Positions 17,077-26,717 of a stretch of DNA of 64,000 bases are shown one piece after another. The translations under genes and the position numbers were made by a program. The notes under the pieces are model-generated. The model saw nothing but the letters and a program-made list of their open reading frames with translations, was not told the DNA's origin and ran no database searches. Source of the stretch: Herbaspirillum sp. ST 5-3 (GTDB lineage Bacteria; Pseudomonadota; Gammaproteobacteria; Burkholderiales; Burkholderiaceae_D). The DNA is taken from positions 1 through 64,000 of the forward strand of contig NZ_STGI01000016.1 of the NCBI RefSeq assembly GCF_004804275.1, in the 5' to 3' direction. Every line of letters begins with the position of its first letter. Positions within the stretch are counted from its first letter, which is position 1.

Positions 17077-17805
17077 ATGAAATGCTTTGTCATCAGCCTC
17101 AACCGCACGCCAGAACGTCTGAAGCGCTTTTATGCATTGAATGGCAATCGCGACCGAATTGAAGCGTTCGAGGCCGTTGATGGTCGCACCATGGACCGCT
17201 CTTCCCTTGTGCGTGAGGGCGTGATTGAAGAAGGACTGCCTTATTACTCCGATGGCGCTATCGGTTGTGCCCTTTCGCATAAACGCCTGTGGGAAATGGC
17301 AATCGAACTTGACCAACCCATAACGGTTCTCGAAGACGACGCAATCCTGAATCATCGTTTTCTAGAAAAAACCGAAGAAATTTGTACACGCACCGAGAAT
17401 TGGGACTATATCCAATGGGGATGGAACTTTGATTCGTTTCTGACCTTCATGCTTCCAGGGGATCTTTCCCCGTGCGTTGCGCATTTCAGTCAAGATGACA
17501 TGCGTTCGAATGCGCGGCGTTTCCAGGACCAGACCATGGAACATCCCTTGTACCGCATTCTGGCTGCCTTTGGCACACCCGCATATAGCATCAGCCCGAC
17601 GGGCGCGCGAAAGCTGCTGGAGTGGTGTTTCCCGTTGTGCGAGCTCAACGTCTACTTCTGGGGCTTGAACCGACACCTGCCGAATAATGGTATCGATATC
17701 GTCATGAACGATTTCTATCGGCAGCCGCATGCAAACGCATTCGTTTCATTTCCGCCCTTGGCAATCACGCCGAATGAGCACGCCGGCTCGACGGTTTCAG
17801 GCTAG
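17077..17805 (+). CDS. Glycosyltransferase family 25 protein
   Basis: A 242-residue protein with the GT25 signature: an N-terminal CFVISLNRTPERLKRF, IEAFEAVDGR, GAIGCALSHKRLWEMA and the acidic VLEDDAIL motif that serves as the metal/donor-binding site. GT25 enzymes typically add galactose to lipooligosaccharide or proteins. A C-terminal block (GTPAYSISPTGARKLLE) is also typical. It begins the accessory segment that continues with three TPR-glycosyltransferases. No lipopolysaccharide core gene lies next to it, so the acceptor is open. Confidence 0.85.
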   Translation: MKCFVISLNRTPERLKRFYALNGNRDRIEAFEAVDGRTMDRSSLVREGVIEEGLPYYSDGAIGCALSHKRLWEMAIELDQPITVLEDDAILNHRFLEKTEEICTRTENWDYIQWGWNFDSFLTFMLPGDLSPCVAHFSQDDMRSNARRFQDQTMEHPLYRILAAFGTPAYSISPTGARKLLEWCFPLCELNVYFWGLNRHLPNNGIDIVMNDFYRQPHANAFVSFPPLAITPNEHAGSTVSG

Positions 17806-17864
17806 CGTGATCAAGGCTTTCGCTTATTGGACAATCAATTTTATGAGTCATTCGAGGAGCAAGC

Positions 17865-18158
17865 ATGTTCAGTTGGTTTGATGCAAAAGACGCGGAAAAA
17901 TTCGGCACCTCCTTGGCCGACTTTTTTATTGAAAGAATTCCGTCGGAAAGCCTTCAAAAGAAATCCGTATCCTTGGCCAAGCAAAAGGATGTCTTGAACA
18001 AACTGGTGTACAAGGTGCAACTGTATGGTACCGAACACAAGCTCAATATCTACAAAAAGGCAAAATTGGGGAACGCATTCAAGTGGAAAATGCGCGAGGC
18101 GCACTATGACCCGGCATTCATCGATGAAGTCACGAAAATGCTGATGGTAAAAATGTAA
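17865..18158 (+). CDS. Hypothetical 97-residue protein
   Basis: A small, lysine-rich soluble protein with a good ribosome-binding site (GAGGAGCAAGC before ATG 17865). It has no signal peptide or membrane segment. The sequence suggests mostly helix (FGTSLADFFIERIP, DVLNKLVYKVQ, and a helical C-terminus ending MLMVKM). I do not recognise a family. It is sandwiched between the GT25 gene (60 bp gap) and the first TPR-glycosyltransferase (23 bp gap), so it probably belongs to the same unit. Its bases look more A-rich than the housekeeping genes around. Confidence 0.6.
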   Translation: MFSWFDAKDAEKFGTSLADFFIERIPSESLQKKSVSLAKQKDVLNKLVYKVQLYGTEHKLNIYKKAKLGNAFKWKMREAHYDPAFIDEVTKMLMVKM

Positions 18159-18181
18159 GTTTGGCGATCGCGTACGAAACC

Positions 18182-19741
18182 ATGTTTAACTGGCTCAAGG
18201 ATTTGCTTGCGCATCGCGTGAATGCCAAGGAAACCGATGAGCTTTTCATTCCGACTCGGAATACCTCATCGACTCGGTCAGGAGCTACTGACGATTACTT
18301 TCGCCAGGCCTTAACGCTGCAAGATCTTGGCCAACATGAAGACGCGCTCGCATGTTTTGACCGGACTTTGCAGATCCAGCCAACTCACGTCGACGCACTC
18401 AACAAGCGCGGCATCACACTGCGAATGCTCAAGCGGTACGATGAGGCGATCGGCTCCATCGATGCAGCATTGACTCTGGAACCCGACCATGTCCCGGCGC
18501 TCAACAACCGCGGCAACGCACTGCAAGATCTGAAACAATTCGAAGGCGCGGTAATCTGGTACGATCGCGCGCTTCATCTCAGGCCGGACTATGCCGACGC
18601 GTGGTACAACCGCGGACTCGCATTGGCTGAACTCGACCGCTTCGAAGACGCAATAAGGAGTTTCGACAGCGCGCTTCAATTCAAATCGGACCATGTTGAC
18701 GCGCTCACCAACCGAGGCTTGGCACTGCGAAGCCTTAATCGCCTGAGAGAAGCACTCGCCTGCTTCGAACAGGCGCTGCAAATGAAACCCGACCACCCCG
18801 AAGCCCATTTCAATGAAGGTTCATGTCGCCTGCTGATGGGCGACCTTGAACTGGGATGGCAAAAATATCATTGGCGTTGGAAATGCAAGCAGTTCAACAG
18901 CATCAATGCCACACTGACCTGTCGTCCGTGGCTTGGCGACGAGCCCATACGCGGAAAAACCTTGTTTGTGCATGCGGAGCAAGGTCTTGGAGATACGATC
19001 CACTTTTGCCGCTATATCAAGCTTCTTGCAGAAAGAGGTGCAACGGTATTACTTGCCGCGCAAGCTCCTCTGACCTCTCTGCTGGCCGATCTGGATGGTG
19101 TGCACATGATCTATGCCATGGGTGAATCCTTGCCGGAATTCGACCTTTACTGTCCATTGCTGAGTCTGCCACTGATTTTCAACACGCGCCTGAACTCCAT
19201 CCCTGCCAATGTCCCCTACCTCCACAGTGACCCTGATCGCACTGCACTCTGGCGCAGGCGTCTGGGTCACGGCACCCTGCCGCGCGTTGGTATCGCCTGG
19301 GCCGGCAGCCTCATACACGAGAATGACCGGAACCGCTCAATCGCCCTGTCCGTATTCAGCAGAATCGTTTCCCGTCACGCACAGTTTGCAAGCCTCCAGA
19401 AAGAGGTCAGGGAATCCGACAAGGCGGAACTCGGTCGCCGCGGCGACATCCTCTTCTTTGGTGATTTTCTCGACGATTTCGCCGATACAGCCGCGCTCGT
19501 GGAGTCGATGGATCTCGTGATTACCGTGGACACTTCGGTGGCGCATTTGGCGGGAGCACTTGGGAAGCCCGTCTGGATATTGTTACCATTCATCCCGGAT
19601 TGGCGGTGGATGCTCGATCGGAGCGACAGCCCATGGTACCCAAGCGCGCGTCTGTTCCGTCAGCCGCGAATGGGTGATTGGGATAGCGTCATTGCCGCGG
19701 TTGCAAATGAGCTTGGCCGATTCGCTAAAGATGCAGCATAG
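18182..19741 (+). CDS. TPR-glycosyltransferase 1 (about 5 TPR repeats)
   Basis: A 519-residue two-part protein. Residues about 37-215 hold five 34-residue TPR units of the form ALxxLxRxxDALxxxDxALxxxPDHxxALNNRG. Residues about 220-519 form a GT-B-like glycosyltransferase domain of the type seen in heptosyltransferase (GT9)-like and OGT-like proteins, with HAEQGLGDTIHFCRY and a donor-site segment TVDTSVAHLAGALGKPVW followed by PDWRWMLDRSDSPWYP. I start at ATG 18182 because the opening MFNWLKDLL matches the N-termini of the two paralogues (MLNWIKNFF, MLTWFKNFL). A TTG at 18161 is the alternative. Acceptor unknown, and FlmG of Caulobacter has the same layout. Confidence 0.85.
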   Translation: MFNWLKDLLAHRVNAKETDELFIPTRNTSSTRSGATDDYFRQALTLQDLGQHEDALACFDRTLQIQPTHVDALNKRGITLRMLKRYDEAIGSIDAALTLEPDHVPALNNRGNALQDLKQFEGAVIWYDRALHLRPDYADAWYNRGLALAELDRFEDAIRSFDSALQFKSDHVDALTNRGLALRSLNRLREALACFEQALQMKPDHPEAHFNEGSCRLLMGDLELGWQKYHWRWKCKQFNSINATLTCRPWLGDEPIRGKTLFVHAEQGLGDTIHFCRYIKLLAERGATVLLAAQAPLTSLLADLDGVHMIYAMGESLPEFDLYCPLLSLPLIFNTRLNSIPANVPYLHSDPDRTALWRRRLGHGTLPRVGIAWAGSLIHENDRNRSIALSVFSRIVSRHAQFASLQKEVRESDKAELGRRGDILFFGDFLDDFADTAALVESMDLVITVDTSVAHLAGALGKPVWILLPFIPDWRWMLDRSDSPWYPSARLFRQPRMGDWDSVIAAVANELGRFAKDAA

Positions 19742-19806
19742 GTTCCGCTGCTGGACGTTGAAATACTCGTGCATTTTCCCTGCATCAGGGATCATCGACT
19801 GAATAA

Positions 19807-21915
19807 ATGCTCAATTGGATTAAAAACTTCTTTGCAAGCTCAGAGACGGCAGACACCGGCAATGTTGGCACCAATGCACAGGCCGGGCTACAGGCGGATC
19901 GCGTGACCATGGCCGCCATCGCCGTTGAAGTCGGCGCAGTTCGTGGTTCGGATGGGATTGATCTCGATGACGCTGTGCGATCCTGCCGAGAGGCGATTGA
20001 ACTCAATCCCCGGGATGCGAAATTGCTGCGGTCTCTCGGCCTGATATTGATGCAGCATGGTCATCAGGATGAGGCAGAAGCCTATTTGCAGCGCGCCCTG
20101 TCCCTCGACCCGACGCTGGCTGACGCACATCACGCGCTGGGCTTGATCCTCCAGAGGCGAGGCCAGCCGGATGACAGCATCCGCCACCTTGAGATGGCGG
20201 TGGAAAAGGACCCGGGTCATGCGGTCGCTCACCGCGACCTTGCCTTTTCCTTCATTCAGCGCGGACTGTTCGACAACGCCCGGCGCACTCTGCTAACAGG
20301 AATGGCGCGCCGACCCGATATTGCCGACCTGCCCTGCTTCTTGGGGAATGTCTATAACCAGGAAGGCAAGCATGGCGAGGCGCTTGCCTTTTATCGACAG
20401 GCGCTGTCGATCGATCCGAACCACCTGGACGCACACTTTAACAGTGGCGTTGCACTTCGCTCACTGGATCGGCATGAAGATGCGCTGCTCAGCTTTGACC
20501 GCATCCTTCAAATAAAGTCGGGTCACGTCGACGCCATCAACAATCGCGGTATAACGCTCAAAGACCTCAAGCGACCAGAAGAAGCACTTGCCTGCTTCGA
20601 TCACGTCTTGCAGCTCAAAGCCGACCATGTCGACGCGATCATCAATCGCGGCAATACCCTGCAAGACATGAAGCGATACGACGACGCGCTGACCTGCTAT
20701 GAGCAAGCACTTCAGCTTAAACCCGACTATGCCGATGGATGGTACAACTGCGGTGTCGCATTACTTGCGCTAAAACGTCCCGATGAAGCACTGGCCAACT
20801 TTGATCGGGCAATCCATTTCAGACCAAACTATGCACAGGCCTACCACAACCGGGGTTTCGCGCTTCAGGAACTTAAGAGGTATGACGACACCCTGGCCAG
20901 TTTTGCAGCAGCGCTTCGACTGAATCCCGGTCATCCTGATACCCGCTTCAATGAGGGGCTGTGCCGCCTGCTGATCGGCGATTTCGCACTGGGTTGGCAA
21001 CAATGCGAATCGCGATGGCAGAGCACGCAACTCAAGGCTGCACACCGGAAATTTTCTCAGCCGCTCTGGCTCGGCGAGGAGCCGGTGAACGGCAGGACAG
21101 TGCTGCTGCACTCGGAACAGGGACTGGGCGATACCCTTCAGTTCTGCCGCTACGCCAGCCTTCTGGCCGCGCAGGGCGCGACCGTGCTGCTCGAAGTCCA
21201 GCCAGCCCTGACCTCCCTGCTGGGAGAACTCGACGGCGTGCACATGATCTACGCCAAGGGCGAAACCCTGCCGGCGTTCGACTATCACTGCCCGCTGCTG
21301 AGCCTTCCCCTGGCATTCAAGACCCGCCTCGACACCATCCCCGCCAGCGTGCCCTACCTGCATTGCGACCCCGATCGACTCGCCATGTGGCGTACCCGGC
21401 TCGGTCATGGCCCGGGGCCCCGCATCGGCCTCGTTTGGTCCGGTAACCCGACCCACCAGAACGACCACAATCGCTCGATCCCACTCGCCGATTTCAGCAG
21501 GATCGTCTCGTGCCAGGCCCAATTCGTCTGCCTGCACAAGGAAGTGCGCGACAGCGACCGAGCATTTCTGGATCAACGCGACGACGTCCTCTTTGTCGGT
21601 GACGACATCGACGATTTCGCCGACACGGCTGCGCTGATAGAATTGATGGACCTTGTCATTACGGTGGATACTTCGGTTGCCCATCTGGCCGGGGGAATGG
21701 GCAAGCCGGTATGGATTCTCTTGCCGTACAACCCGGACTGGCGCTGGCTGTTGGACCGTTCTGACAGTCCATGGTATCCGACTGCCCGGTTGTTTCGACA
21801 GCCGCGTCCGGGAGATTGGGACAGCGTACTGGCTGCGCTTGCCGATGAAATTTCACAATCCATTCTGCGCGCGACGATCAATGCGCAGGCGGGATTTTCG
21901 CAACATGCGCACTGA
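19807..21915 (+). CDS. TPR-glycosyltransferase 2 (about 10 TPR repeats)
   Basis: A 702-residue paralogue of the preceding gene, 65 bp downstream. About ten TPR units (residues 55-395) precede the same C-terminal transferase domain (HSEQGLGDTLQFCRY, VDTSVAHLAGGMGKPVW, PDWRWLLDRSDSPWYP). The first repeats (ADAHHALGLILQ, TGMARRPDIADLPCFLGNVY) resemble those of copy 3 but not copy 1. The DNA from 21051 to 21873 is almost identical to 23585-24407 of copy 3, while DNA upstream is clearly diverged, so the C-terminal domain has been copied or homogenised recently. A 14-residue tail after the shared region is unique to this copy. Confidence 0.87.
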   Translation: MLNWIKNFFASSETADTGNVGTNAQAGLQADRVTMAAIAVEVGAVRGSDGIDLDDAVRSCREAIELNPRDAKLLRSLGLILMQHGHQDEAEAYLQRALSLDPTLADAHHALGLILQRRGQPDDSIRHLEMAVEKDPGHAVAHRDLAFSFIQRGLFDNARRTLLTGMARRPDIADLPCFLGNVYNQEGKHGEALAFYRQALSIDPNHLDAHFNSGVALRSLDRHEDALLSFDRILQIKSGHVDAINNRGITLKDLKRPEEALACFDHVLQLKADHVDAIINRGNTLQDMKRYDDALTCYEQALQLKPDYADGWYNCGVALLALKRPDEALANFDRAIHFRPNYAQAYHNRGFALQELKRYDDTLASFAAALRLNPGHPDTRFNEGLCRLLIGDFALGWQQCESRWQSTQLKAAHRKFSQPLWLGEEPVNGRTVLLHSEQGLGDTLQFCRYASLLAAQGATVLLEVQPALTSLLGELDGVHMIYAKGETLPAFDYHCPLLSLPLAFKTRLDTIPASVPYLHCDPDRLAMWRTRLGHGPGPRIGLVWSGNPTHQNDHNRSIPLADFSRIVSCQAQFVCLHKEVRDSDRAFLDQRDDVLFVGDDIDDFADTAALIELMDLVITVDTSVAHLAGGMGKPVWILLPYNPDWRWLLDRSDSPWYPTARLFRQPRPGDWDSVLAALADEISQSILRATINAQAGFSQHAH
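21051..21873 (+). repeat. Direct repeat, unit A (transferase domain of copy 2)
   Basis: About 823 bp that recur at 23585-24407 at a constant offset of 2534 bp. By eye I count fewer than 20 substitutions and no gaps, and a stretch of about 450 bp (from about 21110 to 21556) appears identical. Substitutions cluster toward the 3' end, and similarity drops abruptly at the 5' boundary. Confidence 0.9.
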
Positions 21916-21944
21916 CGGCGATGTCATACATTTTTTACTAACTC

Positions 21945-24413
21945 ATGCTCACTTGGTTCAAGAATTTCCTTACTTCGTCGCGAGCGTCAGATAGAAACGC
22001 GCCGTCACAGCCAGTGTTCGCCGAAGAGAGCATGAAGTGCAAACAGCAAGGTGACACCTTCCTCGACCAGGGTCTTCTGGACGACGCGGCAAGGTGCTAC
22101 CGACGGGCAATTGAACTCGACCCTCGCAACGCAGCGGTGCACCGCACGCTCGGTCTGATCTTGCACGGCCAAGGCCAAGGCCAACTCGAAGAAGCAGAAT
22201 CCTGCCTGAAACACGCGCTGACTCGCGATCCGAATATGGCCGACGCACACCACGCGTTGGGCCTTATCTTGCAGATGCGCGGGAATTTCGCGGAAAGCAT
22301 TTCCCACTACAGGATGGCGCTGAACGCGGATCCGAACTTCGCTGCGGCGTATCGCGACTTCGGTTATGCATATGTTCAGAACGGTCAAATGGACAATGCC
22401 AAACAAATTCTTCAAACCGGCATGGCTCGCCTTCCCTCATTCGTCGACCTTCCTTACTTTCTCGGAAATGTGCACGCTCATTCAGGGGACTACGAGCAGG
22501 CTCTTGTGCATTACCGGAACGCGCTTGCTATCGAGCCAGGTCATGTCGATGTGCACTACAACTGCGGAATAGCATTGCAAGGGCTGGGGCGACATGAAGA
22601 TTCGCTTGCCTGCTTCGAACGCACGCTCCAACTCAAAGCGGATCATTGTGATGCGTTCAACAAGCGTGGCGTGGCACTACGCGCACTCAAGCGATTCGAC
22701 GAGTCCCTGGCGTCCTTCGACCAAGCCTTGCAGGTCAAGCCCGATTTTGTCGAAGCACTCAGCAATCGCGGCAGCACCCTGCATGAGCTTGGGCGATTTG
22801 AAGAAGCGCTTGCCTGTTATGACCGTGCGCTTGAATTCAGGCCCGATCACGCCGGCGCGCGATACAACCGAGGACTAGCATTGCATGCCCTCGATCGCTT
22901 TGAAGACGCACTTATCGAGTATGGTCGGGCGATACAGCTCAAACATGACAATATCGATGCGCTGAACAATCGCGGAGCGATTTTACTCAAGCTGCGGCGT
23001 TACGACGAAGCTCTGACGAGTTTCGACAACGCGCTTCAGGTCCGTCCTGACGATATCGATGCCCTCAATAACCGCGTTGTGGCATTGCAGGATCTCAAGC
23101 GGTACACCGATGCATTGGCGGGCTGCGAGCGGCTTTTGCGGGATGATCCGGACAATGTCATCACACTCAATAATCGCGCTGTTGTGCTGCATAAGCTCAG
23201 TCGCTACGAAGAAGCAATTTTGTGCTGCGATCGGATATTGGAGTTGGATCCGAATCATATTGGTGCGTTTCTTATAAGAGGCAATGCGTTCCGCGGCGTG
23301 AACAAGTTTGAAGAAGCGTTAGTTAGCTATGATCGCGTGCTTGAGCTTGATCCGGCCCAGCACGACGCGCTAAACAATCGCGGCAACGCACTCACCGCGC
23401 TCAAACGCACGGACGAAGCACTGGAGAGTTACCGGAGAGCGCAAGAGTCCAAGTCCCCGTCAGAGTTTCCCGATGGTTATTACAACGAAGCGCTGACTCG
23501 CCTGCTGATCGGAGACTTTGCCCTCGGTTGGCCGAAGTATGAGTTTCGGTGGCAAATCAATCAATTCGATATCACCTCCCATCAATTTTCTCAGCCGCTC
23601 TGGCTCGGCGAGGAGCCGGTGGACGGCAAGACAGTGCTGCTGCACTCGGAACAGGGACTGGGCGATACCCTTCAGTTCTGCCGCTACGCCAGCCTTCTGG
23701 CCGCGCAGGGCGCGACCGTGCTGCTCGAAGTCCAGCCAGCCCTGACCTCCCTGCTGGGAGAACTCGACGGCGTGCACATGATCTACGCCAAGGGCGAAAC
23801 CCTGCCGGCGTTCGACTATCACTGCCCGCTGCTGAGCCTTCCCCTGGCATTCAAGACCCGCCTCGACACCATCCCCGCCAGCGTGCCCTACCTGCATTGC
23901 GACCCCGATCGACTCGCCATGTGGCGTACCCGGCTCGGTCATGGCCCGGGGCCCCGCATCGGCCTCGTTTGGTCCGGTAACCCGACCCACCAGAACGACC
24001 ACAATCGCTCGATCCCACTCGCCGATTTCAGCAGGATCGTCTCGTGCCAGGCCCAATTCGTCTGCCTGCACAAGGAAGTGCGCGACAGCGACCGGGCATT
24101 CCTGGATCAACGCGACGACGTCCTCTTTGTCGGTGACGACATCGACGATTTCGCCGATACGGCTGCGCTGATAGAATTGATGGACCTTGTCATTACGGTG
24201 GACACTTCGGTTGCCCATCTGGCCGGGGGAATGGGCAAACCGGTATGGATTCTCTTGCCGTACAACCCGGACTGGCGCTGGCTGCTGGACCGTGCCGACA
24301 GTCCATGGTATCCGACTGCCCGGCTGTTTCGGCAGCCATGTCCGGGAGATTGGGATAGCGTGCTGGCTGCGCTTGCCGATGAAATTTCACAATCCATTCT
24401 GCGCGCGGCCTAG
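21945..24413 (+). CDS. TPR-glycosyltransferase 3 (about 14 TPR repeats)
   Basis: An 822-residue paralogue, 29 bp after copy 2. Fourteen consecutive TPR-like units (residues about 28-505) lead into the transferase domain, which is nearly the same as in copy 2. Two units are degenerate (one ends NRV, one NRA in place of NRG), and the second unit carries a GQGQGQ insertion. The three genes thus form a series of about 5, 10 and 14 repeats on one catalytic design. TPR length usually sets the reach and specificity of acceptor binding, so different acceptors or sites are plausible. It faces the pilin gene and shares a bidirectional terminator with it. Confidence 0.87.
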   Translation: MLTWFKNFLTSSRASDRNAPSQPVFAEESMKCKQQGDTFLDQGLLDDAARCYRRAIELDPRNAAVHRTLGLILHGQGQGQLEEAESCLKHALTRDPNMADAHHALGLILQMRGNFAESISHYRMALNADPNFAAAYRDFGYAYVQNGQMDNAKQILQTGMARLPSFVDLPYFLGNVHAHSGDYEQALVHYRNALAIEPGHVDVHYNCGIALQGLGRHEDSLACFERTLQLKADHCDAFNKRGVALRALKRFDESLASFDQALQVKPDFVEALSNRGSTLHELGRFEEALACYDRALEFRPDHAGARYNRGLALHALDRFEDALIEYGRAIQLKHDNIDALNNRGAILLKLRRYDEALTSFDNALQVRPDDIDALNNRVVALQDLKRYTDALAGCERLLRDDPDNVITLNNRAVVLHKLSRYEEAILCCDRILELDPNHIGAFLIRGNAFRGVNKFEEALVSYDRVLELDPAQHDALNNRGNALTALKRTDEALESYRRAQESKSPSEFPDGYYNEALTRLLIGDFALGWPKYEFRWQINQFDITSHQFSQPLWLGEEPVDGKTVLLHSEQGLGDTLQFCRYASLLAAQGATVLLEVQPALTSLLGELDGVHMIYAKGETLPAFDYHCPLLSLPLAFKTRLDTIPASVPYLHCDPDRLAMWRTRLGHGPGPRIGLVWSGNPTHQNDHNRSIPLADFSRIVSCQAQFVCLHKEVRDSDRAFLDQRDDVLFVGDDIDDFADTAALIELMDLVITVDTSVAHLAGGMGKPVWILLPYNPDWRWLLDRADSPWYPTARLFRQPCPGDWDSVLAALADEISQSILRAA
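23585..24407 (+). repeat. Direct repeat, unit B (transferase domain of copy 3)
   Basis: Second copy of the 823-bp unit described at 21051-21873. It ends seven bases into the final codons, where copy 3 stops (GCCTAG) and copy 2 continues (ACGATC...). Recombination between the two units would delete 2534 bp and fuse copy 2's TPR region to copy 3's tail. Confidence 0.9.
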
Positions 24414-24588
24414 GCACATTCGAGGATTTGCTCGCCCCTAACCTTCTGTTTTTTATACCGTGGTACTTGAACGCCGATTATGAAATCCCTCGGCCGGAAT
24501 CATAGTCGGTCACCTAGCGAAAATCTTTCGGAGAGTTCCGGATTGGCCCAACCAGATTCGCTCGCGGTAATCACGGGTCCCTGAAAGC

Positions 24589-24614
24589 AAAACACCCCAC
24601 GAATGGGGTGTTTT
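24589..24614. terminator. Bidirectional intrinsic terminator between TPR-GT 3 and pilA
   Basis: A perfect 10-bp stem (AAAACACCCC at 24589-24598, GGGGTGTTTT at 24605-24614) with a 6-nt loop. Both strands end in a T-run, so it can stop the rightward glycosyltransferase transcript and the leftward pilin transcript. It lies 34 bp beyond the pilA stop. Confidence 0.85.
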
Positions 24615-24647
24615 GATCTTCCAACCAAAAACTCTGTAATTCCCGGA

Positions 24648-25067
24648 TCAGGAAACTGTGCAGCCTTTGATCGTAACGCCAGTACCAACGCCGGTAATCG
24701 AGCAGTTCCAGCTGACGGTGCCACCAGCATCGGCAGGAGCGGTCGGGGTAAGCGTCGCGCTGGCACCTTGATAAGAAGTCGCCAAGACACCAGAACCCGA
24801 GCACATCGCGATGGAGTTGCCACCGGAGTCGACGCATCCCATCGTTCCAGGTCCTGCCGAATTGGTGCCTAGGTTATAGGCTTCGACAACTTTGAGCTTC
24901 TGTCCTTCCAATTCACCAACTGCCTTGCCGGCGTTGGCTTTCTTGACGTAGTCCTGATATGCCGGCAACGCGACGGCCGCCAAAATACCGATAATCGCAA
25001 CGACGATCATCAATTCAATCAAGGTAAAACCGCGCTGAACGCGTTGTTTCATTGTCATTGGTTTCAT
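24648..25067 (-). CDS. pilA: Type IV major pilin (PilA-like prepilin)
   Basis: A 139-residue class IVa prepilin. A 13-residue leader ends in glycine, and cleavage before Phe14 by PilD gives the [22 protein letters not shown] start, with Glu at +5. Mature length is about 126 residues. Four cysteines follow, the last two framing a short C-terminal loop ([16 protein letters not shown]), and the chain ends CTVS. In some Pseudomonas pilins the C-terminal serine carries the O-glycan, so this residue is a candidate acceptor (inference). GGGAG lies 8 bases before ATG 25067. Upstream are a -24/-12-like promoter and clustered TTGTCA motifs. Confidence 0.92.
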
Positions 25068-25245: not shown

Positions 25246-25857
25246 TTATTCCACTAGAAACTGCATTTTGACACCAGATAGTTCGATCACATCCCCGTGG
25301 ACGATGAAATGACGCCCCGGATTAATCGAAACGCCATTGACCAAGGGATAAGCTTTACCCTCTACATGGGTAAGGCAATATCCATTCGATCGCCTCGAGA
25401 TGACCGCGACTTGCAAACCGGGGCGACCAATGGTGGTGAGGGATTTGGACAGTACCGTTTCCTTGCCTGTATTAGCGCCGTTCAGCACCTTGATAACACC
25501 AACCCCGCTCGATCCTCGCGCGAAGACACTCTCGATGAGTCTTGGAGCTGGAACGTGATCACCGGGAGTCGCGCAGGAAACATAGGTTGCCCGGAACTGC
25601 GCCAGCTCGATGATGTCATTCTCCTGCAAGAAATGCTTTTTTATCGGCTGGCCATTCACTTGCGTACCATTCGTGCTATTCAGATCTTCGAGAAAAGCAT
25701 CCTTATCCACAGTGACAATAACTGCATGCTCGGCGCTGATTGCACGATCGTCGATAACAATGTCGTTATGCGGGCTGCGTCCGATTGTCGTCCGTTCCTT
25801 CAACAGCGATATTTCCCGCATAACGACGTTGTTCATTGCAAGGATTATCTTCGCCAT
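25246..25857 (-). CDS. FHA-domain protein, tandem with a degenerate second FHA
   Basis: A 203-residue cytoplasmic protein. Residues about 5-90 form a canonical forkhead-associated domain: TTIGRSPHNDIVIDD, ISAEHAVI and LNSTNGTQVNG are the phosphothreonine-contacting loops. The second half (from about residue 120) repeats the pattern weakly (TTIGRPG, PLVNGVSINPG, GDVIEL) but lacks the serine-histidine loop, so it is probably structural. I start at ATG 25857, preceded by GGAGAGG, instead of the ATG 18 bases upstream. It lies 32 bp after the PP2C gene and before the pilin regulatory region. No Ser/Thr kinase is visible in the window. Confidence 0.85.
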   Translation of the reverse strand: MAKIILAMNNVVMREISLLKERTTIGRSPHNDIVIDDRAISAEHAVIVTVDKDAFLEDLNSTNGTQVNGQPIKKHFLQENDIIELAQFRATYVSCATPGDHVPAPRLIESVFARGSSGVGVIKVLNGANTGKETVLSKSLTTIGRPGLQVAVISRRSNGYCLTHVEGKAYPLVNGVSINPGRHFIVHGDVIELSGVKMQFLVE

Positions 25858-25889
25858 ATACCTCTCCGCCCGCATGTTCTTTCAAGACT

Positions 25890-26717
25890 TCAAGCAACCC
25901 AGTTAAGGATCCGCCCCAGCAACCCTGCCGACTCCGGAGTGAACGACTGAATCCTGATCAAAATCACGGAAATGTTGTCATGCCCGCCGTTCTCATTCGC
26001 TCGTTGTACCAGTGCATTGCAGATTTGTTCCAAGGAATCCGGTCGGGACAAGAGGATCTCACCAATTTCCTGCATAAGCAGCATGTCGGACAGACCGTCC
26101 GAGCATAAAAGATAGAGATCCCCAAGCTCAACCTGATGTTCATGAACCTCCACCTCCATGTCTGGACCGACACCGAGAGCGCGCGTTACCAGGTTCTTGT
26201 TCTGAGAGAAACGCGCCCATTCAGGACTAATCAGGCCTGCGTCGATTTGCTCTTGGAGCAGGGAGTGATCCCTCGTAAGCTGAGTCAGATCGTTCCCTCG
26301 CAATCGATAGGCGCGTGAATCGCCGACATGGGCGATGATGGCTTTATCATGGTGGAACACCGCCGCCACAAGCGTCGTACCCATTCCACTGTATTGCGGC
26401 TCGCTGCGCGCAGCCTCAAGAATTGCCGAGTTGGAGCGTTGAATGGAATCGATCAATAATTGCTGAATTTGCCGCTGGCGATGCGCGCGCGAATCTCCCT
26501 GTTGACCTTGCAGCCGCGCGAGTCCTTCTACCAGTAACTGCTTTGCAACAGAGATCGCAATTCCACTGGCAACCTCCCCGGCACTATATCCACCCATGCC
26601 ATCTGCAAGTACGGCAAAGCCGTATATCGGGCTGGTCGCAATCGCATCTTCATTATGCGGTCGCACCAATCCGGTATCGGTTCTCGCAGCGAATTCTAAC
26701 CCGACATTGTTTGCCAT
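25890..26717 (-). CDS. PP2C-family Ser/Thr protein phosphatase
   Basis: A 275-residue PPM phosphatase with all usual metal-binding motifs: RTDTGLVRPHNEDA, VLADGMGGYSAGEVAS, IAHVGDSRAYRLR, LLCSDGLSDML and GGHDNISVILI. It is of the Stp1/PppA type that reverses Hanks-type kinase phosphorylation. It is paired with the FHA protein (32 bp gap), a typical phospho-threonine signalling duo also seen in type VI secretion and cell-division control. Neither T6SS genes nor the cognate kinase are nearby. Confidence 0.88.
   Translation of the reverse strand: MANNVGLEFAARTDTGLVRPHNEDAIATSPIYGFAVLADGMGGYSAGEVASGIAISVAKQLLVEGLARLQGQQGDSRAHRQRQIQQLLIDSIQRSNSAILEAARSEPQYSGMGTTLVAAVFHHDKAIIAHVGDSRAYRLRGNDLTQLTRDHSLLQEQIDAGLISPEWARFSQNKNLVTRALGVGPDMEVEVHEHQVELGDLYLLCSDGLSDMLLMQEIGEILLSRPDSLEQICNALVQRANENGGHDNISVILIRIQSFTPESAGLLGRILNWVA

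Follow-up and report, generated by a model that had tools for sequence, protein, structure and literature searches.

A small conserved protein family marks TPR-glycosyltransferases linked to type IV pilin genes in Herbaspirillum and other bacteria

Results

A 97-residue protein family accompanies TPR-glycosyltransferases near pilin genes

In a 64,000-nucleotide stretch of Herbaspirillum sp. ST 5-3 DNA (contig NZ_STGI01000016.1, positions 1 to 64,000; hereafter the window), five consecutive genes, encoding a GT25-family glycosyltransferase (GT), a 97-residue protein and three GTs with N-terminal tetratricopeptide repeats (TPR-GT1 to TPR-GT3), face the type IV pilin gene pilA. We found that the 97-residue protein belongs to a conserved family that recurs with TPR-GTs and pilin genes in other bacteria; the association of this module with the pilus is well supported by genomic context, and no other component marks the system as well as this family, which was overlooked in the first reading of this DNA. 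From gene and domain content we tentatively read the operon, at a little under even confidence, as encoding a cytoplasmic module for protein glycosylation that targets the type IV pilus, most likely the pilin. The relevant features are as follows.

17077..17805, + strand: GT25-family glycosyltransferase (PF01755, E 1.7e-23), first gene of the presumed operon
17865..18158, + strand: 97-residue protein of an unnamed family, basic, with helices only in the predicted fold, and a candidate TPR-GT partner
18161..19741, + strand: TPR-GT1, 526 residues, TPR_1 in 5 stretches, GT9-like C-terminal domain, N terminus MFNWLKDLL
19807..21915, + strand: TPR-GT2, 702 residues, TPR_1 in 6 stretches, N terminus MLNWIKNFF
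21945..24413, + strand: TPR-GT3, 822 residues, TPR_1 in 10 stretches, N terminus MLTWFKNFL
24575..24640, no strand assigned: terminator-like hairpin separating pilA from the TPR-GT operon that faces it (fold -25 kcal/mol, z -3.5)
24648..25067, - strand: type IV pilin pilA, 139 residues, proposed acceptor (PF07963, N_methyl, E 9.9e-11)

The open reading frames (ORFs) that an initial annotation had described at 17077-25067, and their order, hold: GT25, the 97-residue ORF and three TPR-GTs on the + strand, facing the pilin on the - strand. The gaps inside the five-gene run (17077-24413) are short (59, 2, 65 and 29 bases), and the run therefore reads as a single operon. Because of the hairpin, which is absent from the list given by a terminator consensus scan, pilA and the TPR-GT operon look like distinct transcription units. 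For TPR-GT1, the ATG at 18182, which opens the peptide MFNWLKDLL, appears a more likely start than the TTG at 18161. None of the five operon proteins has a predicted transmembrane (TM) segment. The window pilA product is the best of the 20 N_methyl matches in the genome; its mature form would comprise 126 residues with cysteines at 65, 76, 109 and 123, the C terminus CTVS and a computed mass of 12.38 kDa (N-methylated, two disulfides).

While the initial annotation regarded the 97-residue protein as an orphan, and it indeed lacks any Pfam or NCBIfam match at E 0.001, homologs 28-58% identical occur in other genera. Among 392 genomes of the window's taxonomic family, 29, its own included, carry the protein family at E 0.01, three of them (G024, G072 and G088) by weak matches; most of the 29 are Undibacterium. 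A scan of named genomes yielded 52 loci, mostly in Betaproteobacteria (Undibacterium, Polaromonas, Rhizobacter, Methylibium, Acidovorax, Ramlibacter, Rhodocyclaceae and Gallionella), but also in Arenimonas, Lysobacterales and one metagenome-assembled genome (MAG) labeled Anaerolineae. An alignment of 45 of these 52 loci plus the window (L220, L230, L249, L257, L264, L265 and L266 being omitted) displays a conserved stretch, LNxYKKAxLGNxFKW. The window protein has an isoelectric point of 9.5, which is also the family median, and its N terminus, MFSWFDAKD, resembles the N-terminal peptides of the TPR-GTs. An AlphaFold2 model (predicted local distance difference test score 90.7, predicted template modeling score 0.82) consists of four main helices and a short one, the first five residues being unsure; no related solved structure was found. 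At eleven loci (L173, L174, L182, L185, L187, L189, L235, L240, L241, L242 and L244), family members lie between a TonB-dependent receptor gene and metH, mostly with no adjoining TPR-GT.

Within the 52 named loci, a TPR-GT of either the GT9-like or the GT41 class lies within 3 kb of the 97-residue gene in 36. A pilin gene is present in the retrieved stretch at 18; counting also the loci with two or more genes of the recA-sucCD-moaC block (described below) raises this number to 27. We compared these loci, which are taxonomically wider, with 37 TPR-GT9 loci without the 97-residue gene, all from the window's taxonomic family (40 loci minus L103 and L131, where the gene is present, and L135, which has no GT). 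With pilins detected by a length-limited motif pattern, which misses divergent ones, a pilin occurs within 5.5 kb at 16/52 loci versus 0/37 controls (Fisher p 1e-4) and within 3 kb at 10/52 versus 0/37 (p 0.004). In a set of 30 loci from the genomes of the taxonomic family, overlapping with the 52, 20 have a TPR-GT within 1 kb of the 97-residue gene. The two genes share their orientation in all 20 of these close pairs, with the TPR-GT directly downstream in 17, and 12 of the 30 loci include a pilin. The layout of the window is repeated in a Rhodocyclaceae MAG (L221), with the 97-residue gene and two TPR-GT9 genes on the + strand, a pilin gene on the - strand, GT domains 55-56% identical and, as in the window, a hairpin-like repeat before the convergent pilin. 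At many other loci, GT41-type TPR proteins stand in for the GT9-like enzymes. The GT25 gene of the window has no listed match at the other loci of the family compared (BLAST with the window GT25 as reference).

The module could instead glycosylate another exported or surface protein, the pilin locus being a mere insertion hotspot, which we consider rather unlikely. In its favor, TPR-GT9s are common in the taxonomic family (104/195 genomes at E 0.001, weak matches counted) and mostly lie away from pilins, some of them beside flagellin (4/40 loci: L104, L113, L116 and L129) or an ABC-exporter-like ORF (three loci), and the slot between moaC and pilA is variable. However, the link between the 97-residue family and pilins holds outside the conserved block (L221, L238, four Polaromonas loci, L237, L245 and L246) and at several positions inside it (recX/sucC, abhydrolase/M48, beyond M48 and pilA/moaC). 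The exporter-like ORF, named presumptively from its sequence, recurs near TPR-GT9 genes in three genera (L102, L126 and L132), where the TPR-GTs perhaps act on type I secreted proteins.

TPR-GTs linked to the 97-residue family often share an N-terminal peptide

A short hydrophobic-basic N-terminal peptide is found in 28 of 57 TPR-GTs linked to the 97-residue gene versus 4 of 48 unlinked ones (p 5e-6), in a test with thresholds set ad hoc, predicted starts and related rows, restricted to ORFs that begin with M, V or L, with those of identical ends omitted. The contrast persists in the GT9 class alone (12/20 versus 4/42, p 5e-5), and linked enzymes of both classes, GT9-like and GT41, often carry the peptide. 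Of the four unlinked positives, three (two at L120, one at L125) belong to genomes G214 and G204, where a 97-residue gene is present at another site. Controls at internal methionines gave 0 in each group, although they are lenient, with one position each versus up to 45 at the N terminus. We infer that this amphipathic peptide may serve as a membrane tether.

The three enzymes share a GT9-like catalytic domain but differ in their TPR arrays

PF01075 (GT9) matches TPR-GT1, TPR-GT2 and TPR-GT3 with 24, 21 and 21 bits respectively, the Pfam cut-off being 22, and PF13844 (GT41) does not match the GT domains of the window at E 1. The enzymes resemble the GT41/OGT type in joining TPR arrays to a GT but differ from it in matching PF01075. 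Two motifs, GxGD and DTxxxH, which are catalytic in heptosyltransferases, are kept in all 13 aligned rows. The three enzymes combine a near-identical catalytic domain with divergent TPR arrays. For TPR-GT2 and TPR-GT3, DNA identity is 94% over 925 bases; the opening 480 bases of the GT block common to both differ at two positions, and identity drops to ~66% in the TPR parts. These near-identical catalytic halves (20932-21873 and 23466-24410) point to a recent event of gene conversion or duplication.

In a tree of 64 GT9 domains, the three domains of the window form one clade (support 100/99), whereas GT9s linked to the 97-residue family are scattered over several parts of the tree. Its starred branches force at least four changes of the linked label and at least three of the linked-with-pilin label, and none of 500 shuffles was as low as the observed counts. 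In the tree of the 97-residue family, whose bootstrap had not converged, 10 changes of the pilin label are required, a count as low in 7 of 500 shuffles. The scatter of linked GT9s and the occurrence of GT41-type TPR-GTs in the same position indicate repeated recruitment, and both trees fit a pairing that would have been assembled, or lost, repeatedly.

GT25 and GT9 enzymes are best known from lipopolysaccharide (LPS) synthesis, and the four GTs of the operon, with their PF01755 and PF01075 domains, might build an LPS or polysaccharide glycan. We regard this as very unlikely, since long TPR arrays and association with pilins are atypical of LPS enzymes and the operon contains no other LPS gene.

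The operon occupies a variable slot beside pilA

We read the genomic setting from 17 stretches around the FHA gene of relatives. The conserved block runs bcaT, SnoaL-like, abhydrolase, DUF1285-like, M48, moaC, slot, pilA, FHA, PP2C, sucD, sucC, recX and recA, several of these gene names being presumptive. In the 12 stretches with both moaC and a pilin (L044, L045, L047, L049 and L052 lacking one or the other), the moaC-pilA slot is empty in five (G004, G035, G001, G015 and G025) and contains extra genes in seven. A Pfam scan of ten slot ORFs, a subset of those at the 17 loci, together with NCBIfam and BLAST, revealed a TfpZ-type protein in G014 (L039; 194 bits against the NF041437 cut-off of 200), another in G028 (BLAST to a TfpZ), a Wzy_C ligase in G013, a TMTC-like membrane protein with TPRs in G007, a methyltransferase and a sulfatase-fold protein in G010, a PAP2-domain ORF in G012 and an SNase-domain ORF in G011. 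TPR-GTs of the window class were found in the slot of none of the other readable relatives (12). Judging by gene content, the slot is a site where pilin accessory genes swap, much as excerpts of PMC11841053 describe for the accessory genes around pilA in Pseudomonas. TfpX, TfpY and TfpZ fill the same pilA-side slot in relatives (L039, L043 and L177) but are different proteins, absent from the slot of the window: NF041437 (TfpX/TfpZ, NCBIfam) matches the L177 protein with 218 bits and matches none of the 97-residue protein, TPR-GT1, the pilin and GT25 of the window.

Several other genes adjoin pilins in this setting. In G010, of the same genus, the slot (L048:7124-10517) contains a methyltransferase, a sulfatase-fold membrane-type protein and a 250-residue protein without known function, which may decorate pilin in yet another way. 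A TMTC-like multi-spanning protein with C-terminal TPRs, in which Pfam sees the TPRs at most, recurs beside pilin genes (L226, L231, L233 and L234 in Polaromonas; L216, L222, L237 and L245; L051:5129-6886) and is possibly an unrecognized pilin-modifying membrane enzyme; none was found in the genome of the window. Finally, pilA is flanked by genes for an FHA-domain protein and a PP2C-type phosphatase (25246-26717) in the window as well as in many relatives, which might connect pili to phospho-signaling.

Other glycosylation capacity in the genome

Pilin glycosylation, according to excerpts of PMC12645811 and PMC11841053, is carried out by the oligosaccharyltransferases TfpO, TfpM, PglL and PglS or by TfpW. 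The initial annotation had proposed that the TPR-GTs may act in place of such an enzyme, specifically PglL or TfpO. A search for a PglL-class ligase in this genome detected none: a profile of five PglL proteins from relatives gave at best 19.6 bits over 129 positions, in a Wzy_C protein. The same profile matches 10 of 15 genomes at E 0.01, strongly in G005 (same genus, 617 bits) and G013 (159 bits) alone. As regards PglL, the claim stands for this genome, but not as a general rule, since PglL coexists with the module in Undibacterium-type clusters. Three Wzy_C proteins score above the cut-off here, and a TfpO-type ligase may be among them; none lies near pilA. Two adjoin polysaccharide-type genes, and the third adjoins a GT that looks to us like one of LPS core synthesis. 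At the window locus itself, Pfam finds no Wzy_C, Wzy_C_2 or PglL_A domain.

Could the TPR-GTs of the window act on flagellin instead? Their TPR and GT layout is that of FlmG, a flagellin O-glycosyltransferase (PMC7591256, excerpt), and some related TPR-GT9s adjoin flagellin genes. Nevertheless, we find this highly improbable, since the flagellin gene (G000:C23:232140-232550) is on another contig with a TPR-GT41 cluster of its own, ~0.7 kb from the gene of a 2090-residue protein with GT41 domains and TPRs. The TPR-GT41s on the flagellin side start without the amphipathic peptide. The same locus (G000:C23:226000-258000) holds genes for further TPR proteins of 836, 978 and 497 residues, one of them bearing a methyltransferase domain, and genes of nucleotide-sugar type.

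Genes for sugar supply adjoin the module at two other loci. At L177, of Undibacterium type, a TPR-GT41 gene is followed by those of a DesI/PseC-like DegT aminotransferase, two KASIII proteins, an SDR and a NeuD/PglB/VioB-type acyltransferase, likely an acylated amino-sugar donor pathway. At L246, from Acidovorax, the upstream genes include those of KASIII and of a PglD-domain acyltransferase. We take this gene set to resemble the modified-viosamine genes of Pseudomonas flagellin glycosylation.

Discussion

The closest parallel to the system described here is FlmG of Caulobacter crescentus, a cytoplasmic O-glycosyltransferase of flagellins with TPRs and a GT-B domain (PMC7591256, excerpt). In a comparison by description, the TPR-GTs of the window likewise combine an N-terminal TPR array and a putative C-terminal GT domain in one soluble protein, and direct transfer in the cytoplasm would be the shared mechanism. 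Unlike FlmG, they are linked to a pilin, come in three tandem copies, are preceded by a 97-residue partner and carry an amphipathic N terminus. What is new here is a small partner family and, putatively, a variant of the FlmG-type TPR-GT, and from this domain layout we propose that the module would work as FlmG does. With TfpO, TfpM, PglL, PglS and TfpW, the module shares genes near the pilin gene and, as a presumed end effect, a glycosylated pilin. However, those are membrane enzymes that use lipid-linked sugar, while the proteins of the window have neither a TM segment nor Wzy_C. In the literature searched (titles and abstract openings, outside subscription papers and preprints), no TPR-GT acting on pilins is described.

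How might such a module operate? We envisage that the N-terminal peptide would tether the TPR-GTs to the cytoplasmic side of the inner membrane, at the site of prepilin insertion, that each TPR array would dock on an acceptor, and that the putative GT-B-type domain would move a sugar from a nucleotide donor straight to a Ser/Thr residue. The acceptor would be a component of the pilus, with the pilin as the likeliest candidate, modified before export or in its course. The 97-residue protein would be an adaptor or docking subunit, and GT25 may extend the glycan. Shared catalysis with different TPR arrays looks as if one sugar goes on several acceptors or sites. Protein glycosylation by the module is likely from its domain make-up, and the pilin is a plausible candidate acceptor. 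Accordingly worded, the earlier suggestion that the TPR-GTs may modify pilin survives in that the locus belongs to a recurrent pilin-linked module, with acceptor and glycan both still putative. Its narrower version, glycosylation of the C-terminal serine, fails: only 2 of 24 pilins at the named 97-residue loci end in Ser, and the 70%-identical pilin of G004 ends in CTVGP.

Several points weigh against a module directed at the pilin. The main objection is topology. Prepilin is thought to be Sec-inserted during translation, and a cytoplasmic enzyme would therefore have little access to its globular domain. The G004 pilin, from the same genus, adjoins an empty slot and manages without the operon. 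In the tree of the 97-residue family, 21 of 46 rows have neither a pilin nor the block in the retrieved stretch, some being at contig ends. At four named Undibacterium loci (L235, L241, L242 and L244), the gene lies between a TonB receptor gene and metH, three of them with no TPR-GT among the listed genes. The locus in the window has no conspicuous nucleotide-sugar donor genes of its own, and the donor-pathway genes found elsewhere could serve PglL equally, which makes them support rather than proof; at Undibacterium-type pilin loci, PglL (Wzy_C, Wzy_C_2 and PglL_A) is indeed in the same cluster as the module. The PF01075 scores of TPR-GT2 and TPR-GT3 fall just under the Pfam cut-off, and the ad hoc thresholds of the peptide test count here too.

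The topology problem would be sidestepped if the TPR-GTs and the 97-residue protein modified or bound cytoplasmic pilus-machinery or regulatory proteins, as a TfpY-like assembly aid, instead of the pilin. Such a role in biogenesis would produce the same genomic association, suits the lack of TM segments in all five proteins with its location in the cytoplasm or at the membrane face, and has a precedent in TfpX/Y/Z, which lie beside pilins and aid assembly without modifying them (PMC11841053, excerpt). We nonetheless judge it unlikely, since the GT motifs are invariant in the 13 aligned rows and nucleotide-sugar genes adjoin the module at L177 and L246.

Glycosylation directed at the pilus, most likely at the pilin, remains our preferred reading. 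Its fullest form, a lipid-independent cytoplasmic glycosylation of pilins in Betaproteobacteria, in which two GT classes tethered by a peptide and assisted by a 97-residue adaptor would modify prepilin before export with no oligosaccharyltransferase needed, is possible but doubtful. Stepwise transfer of glycans in the cytoplasm is exemplified by flagella (PMC12645811 and PMC11841053, excerpts), and a pilus-directed TPR-GT system, if true, would extend this route to type IV pili, and how an exported, membrane-inserted subunit is reached would become a question. It would also bear on resistance to pilus phages, which pilin glycans block in Pseudomonas (PMC11841053, excerpt). Regardless of mechanism, the 97-residue family offers a handle for the study of pilus-linked TPR-GTs, which this short, conserved gene marks.

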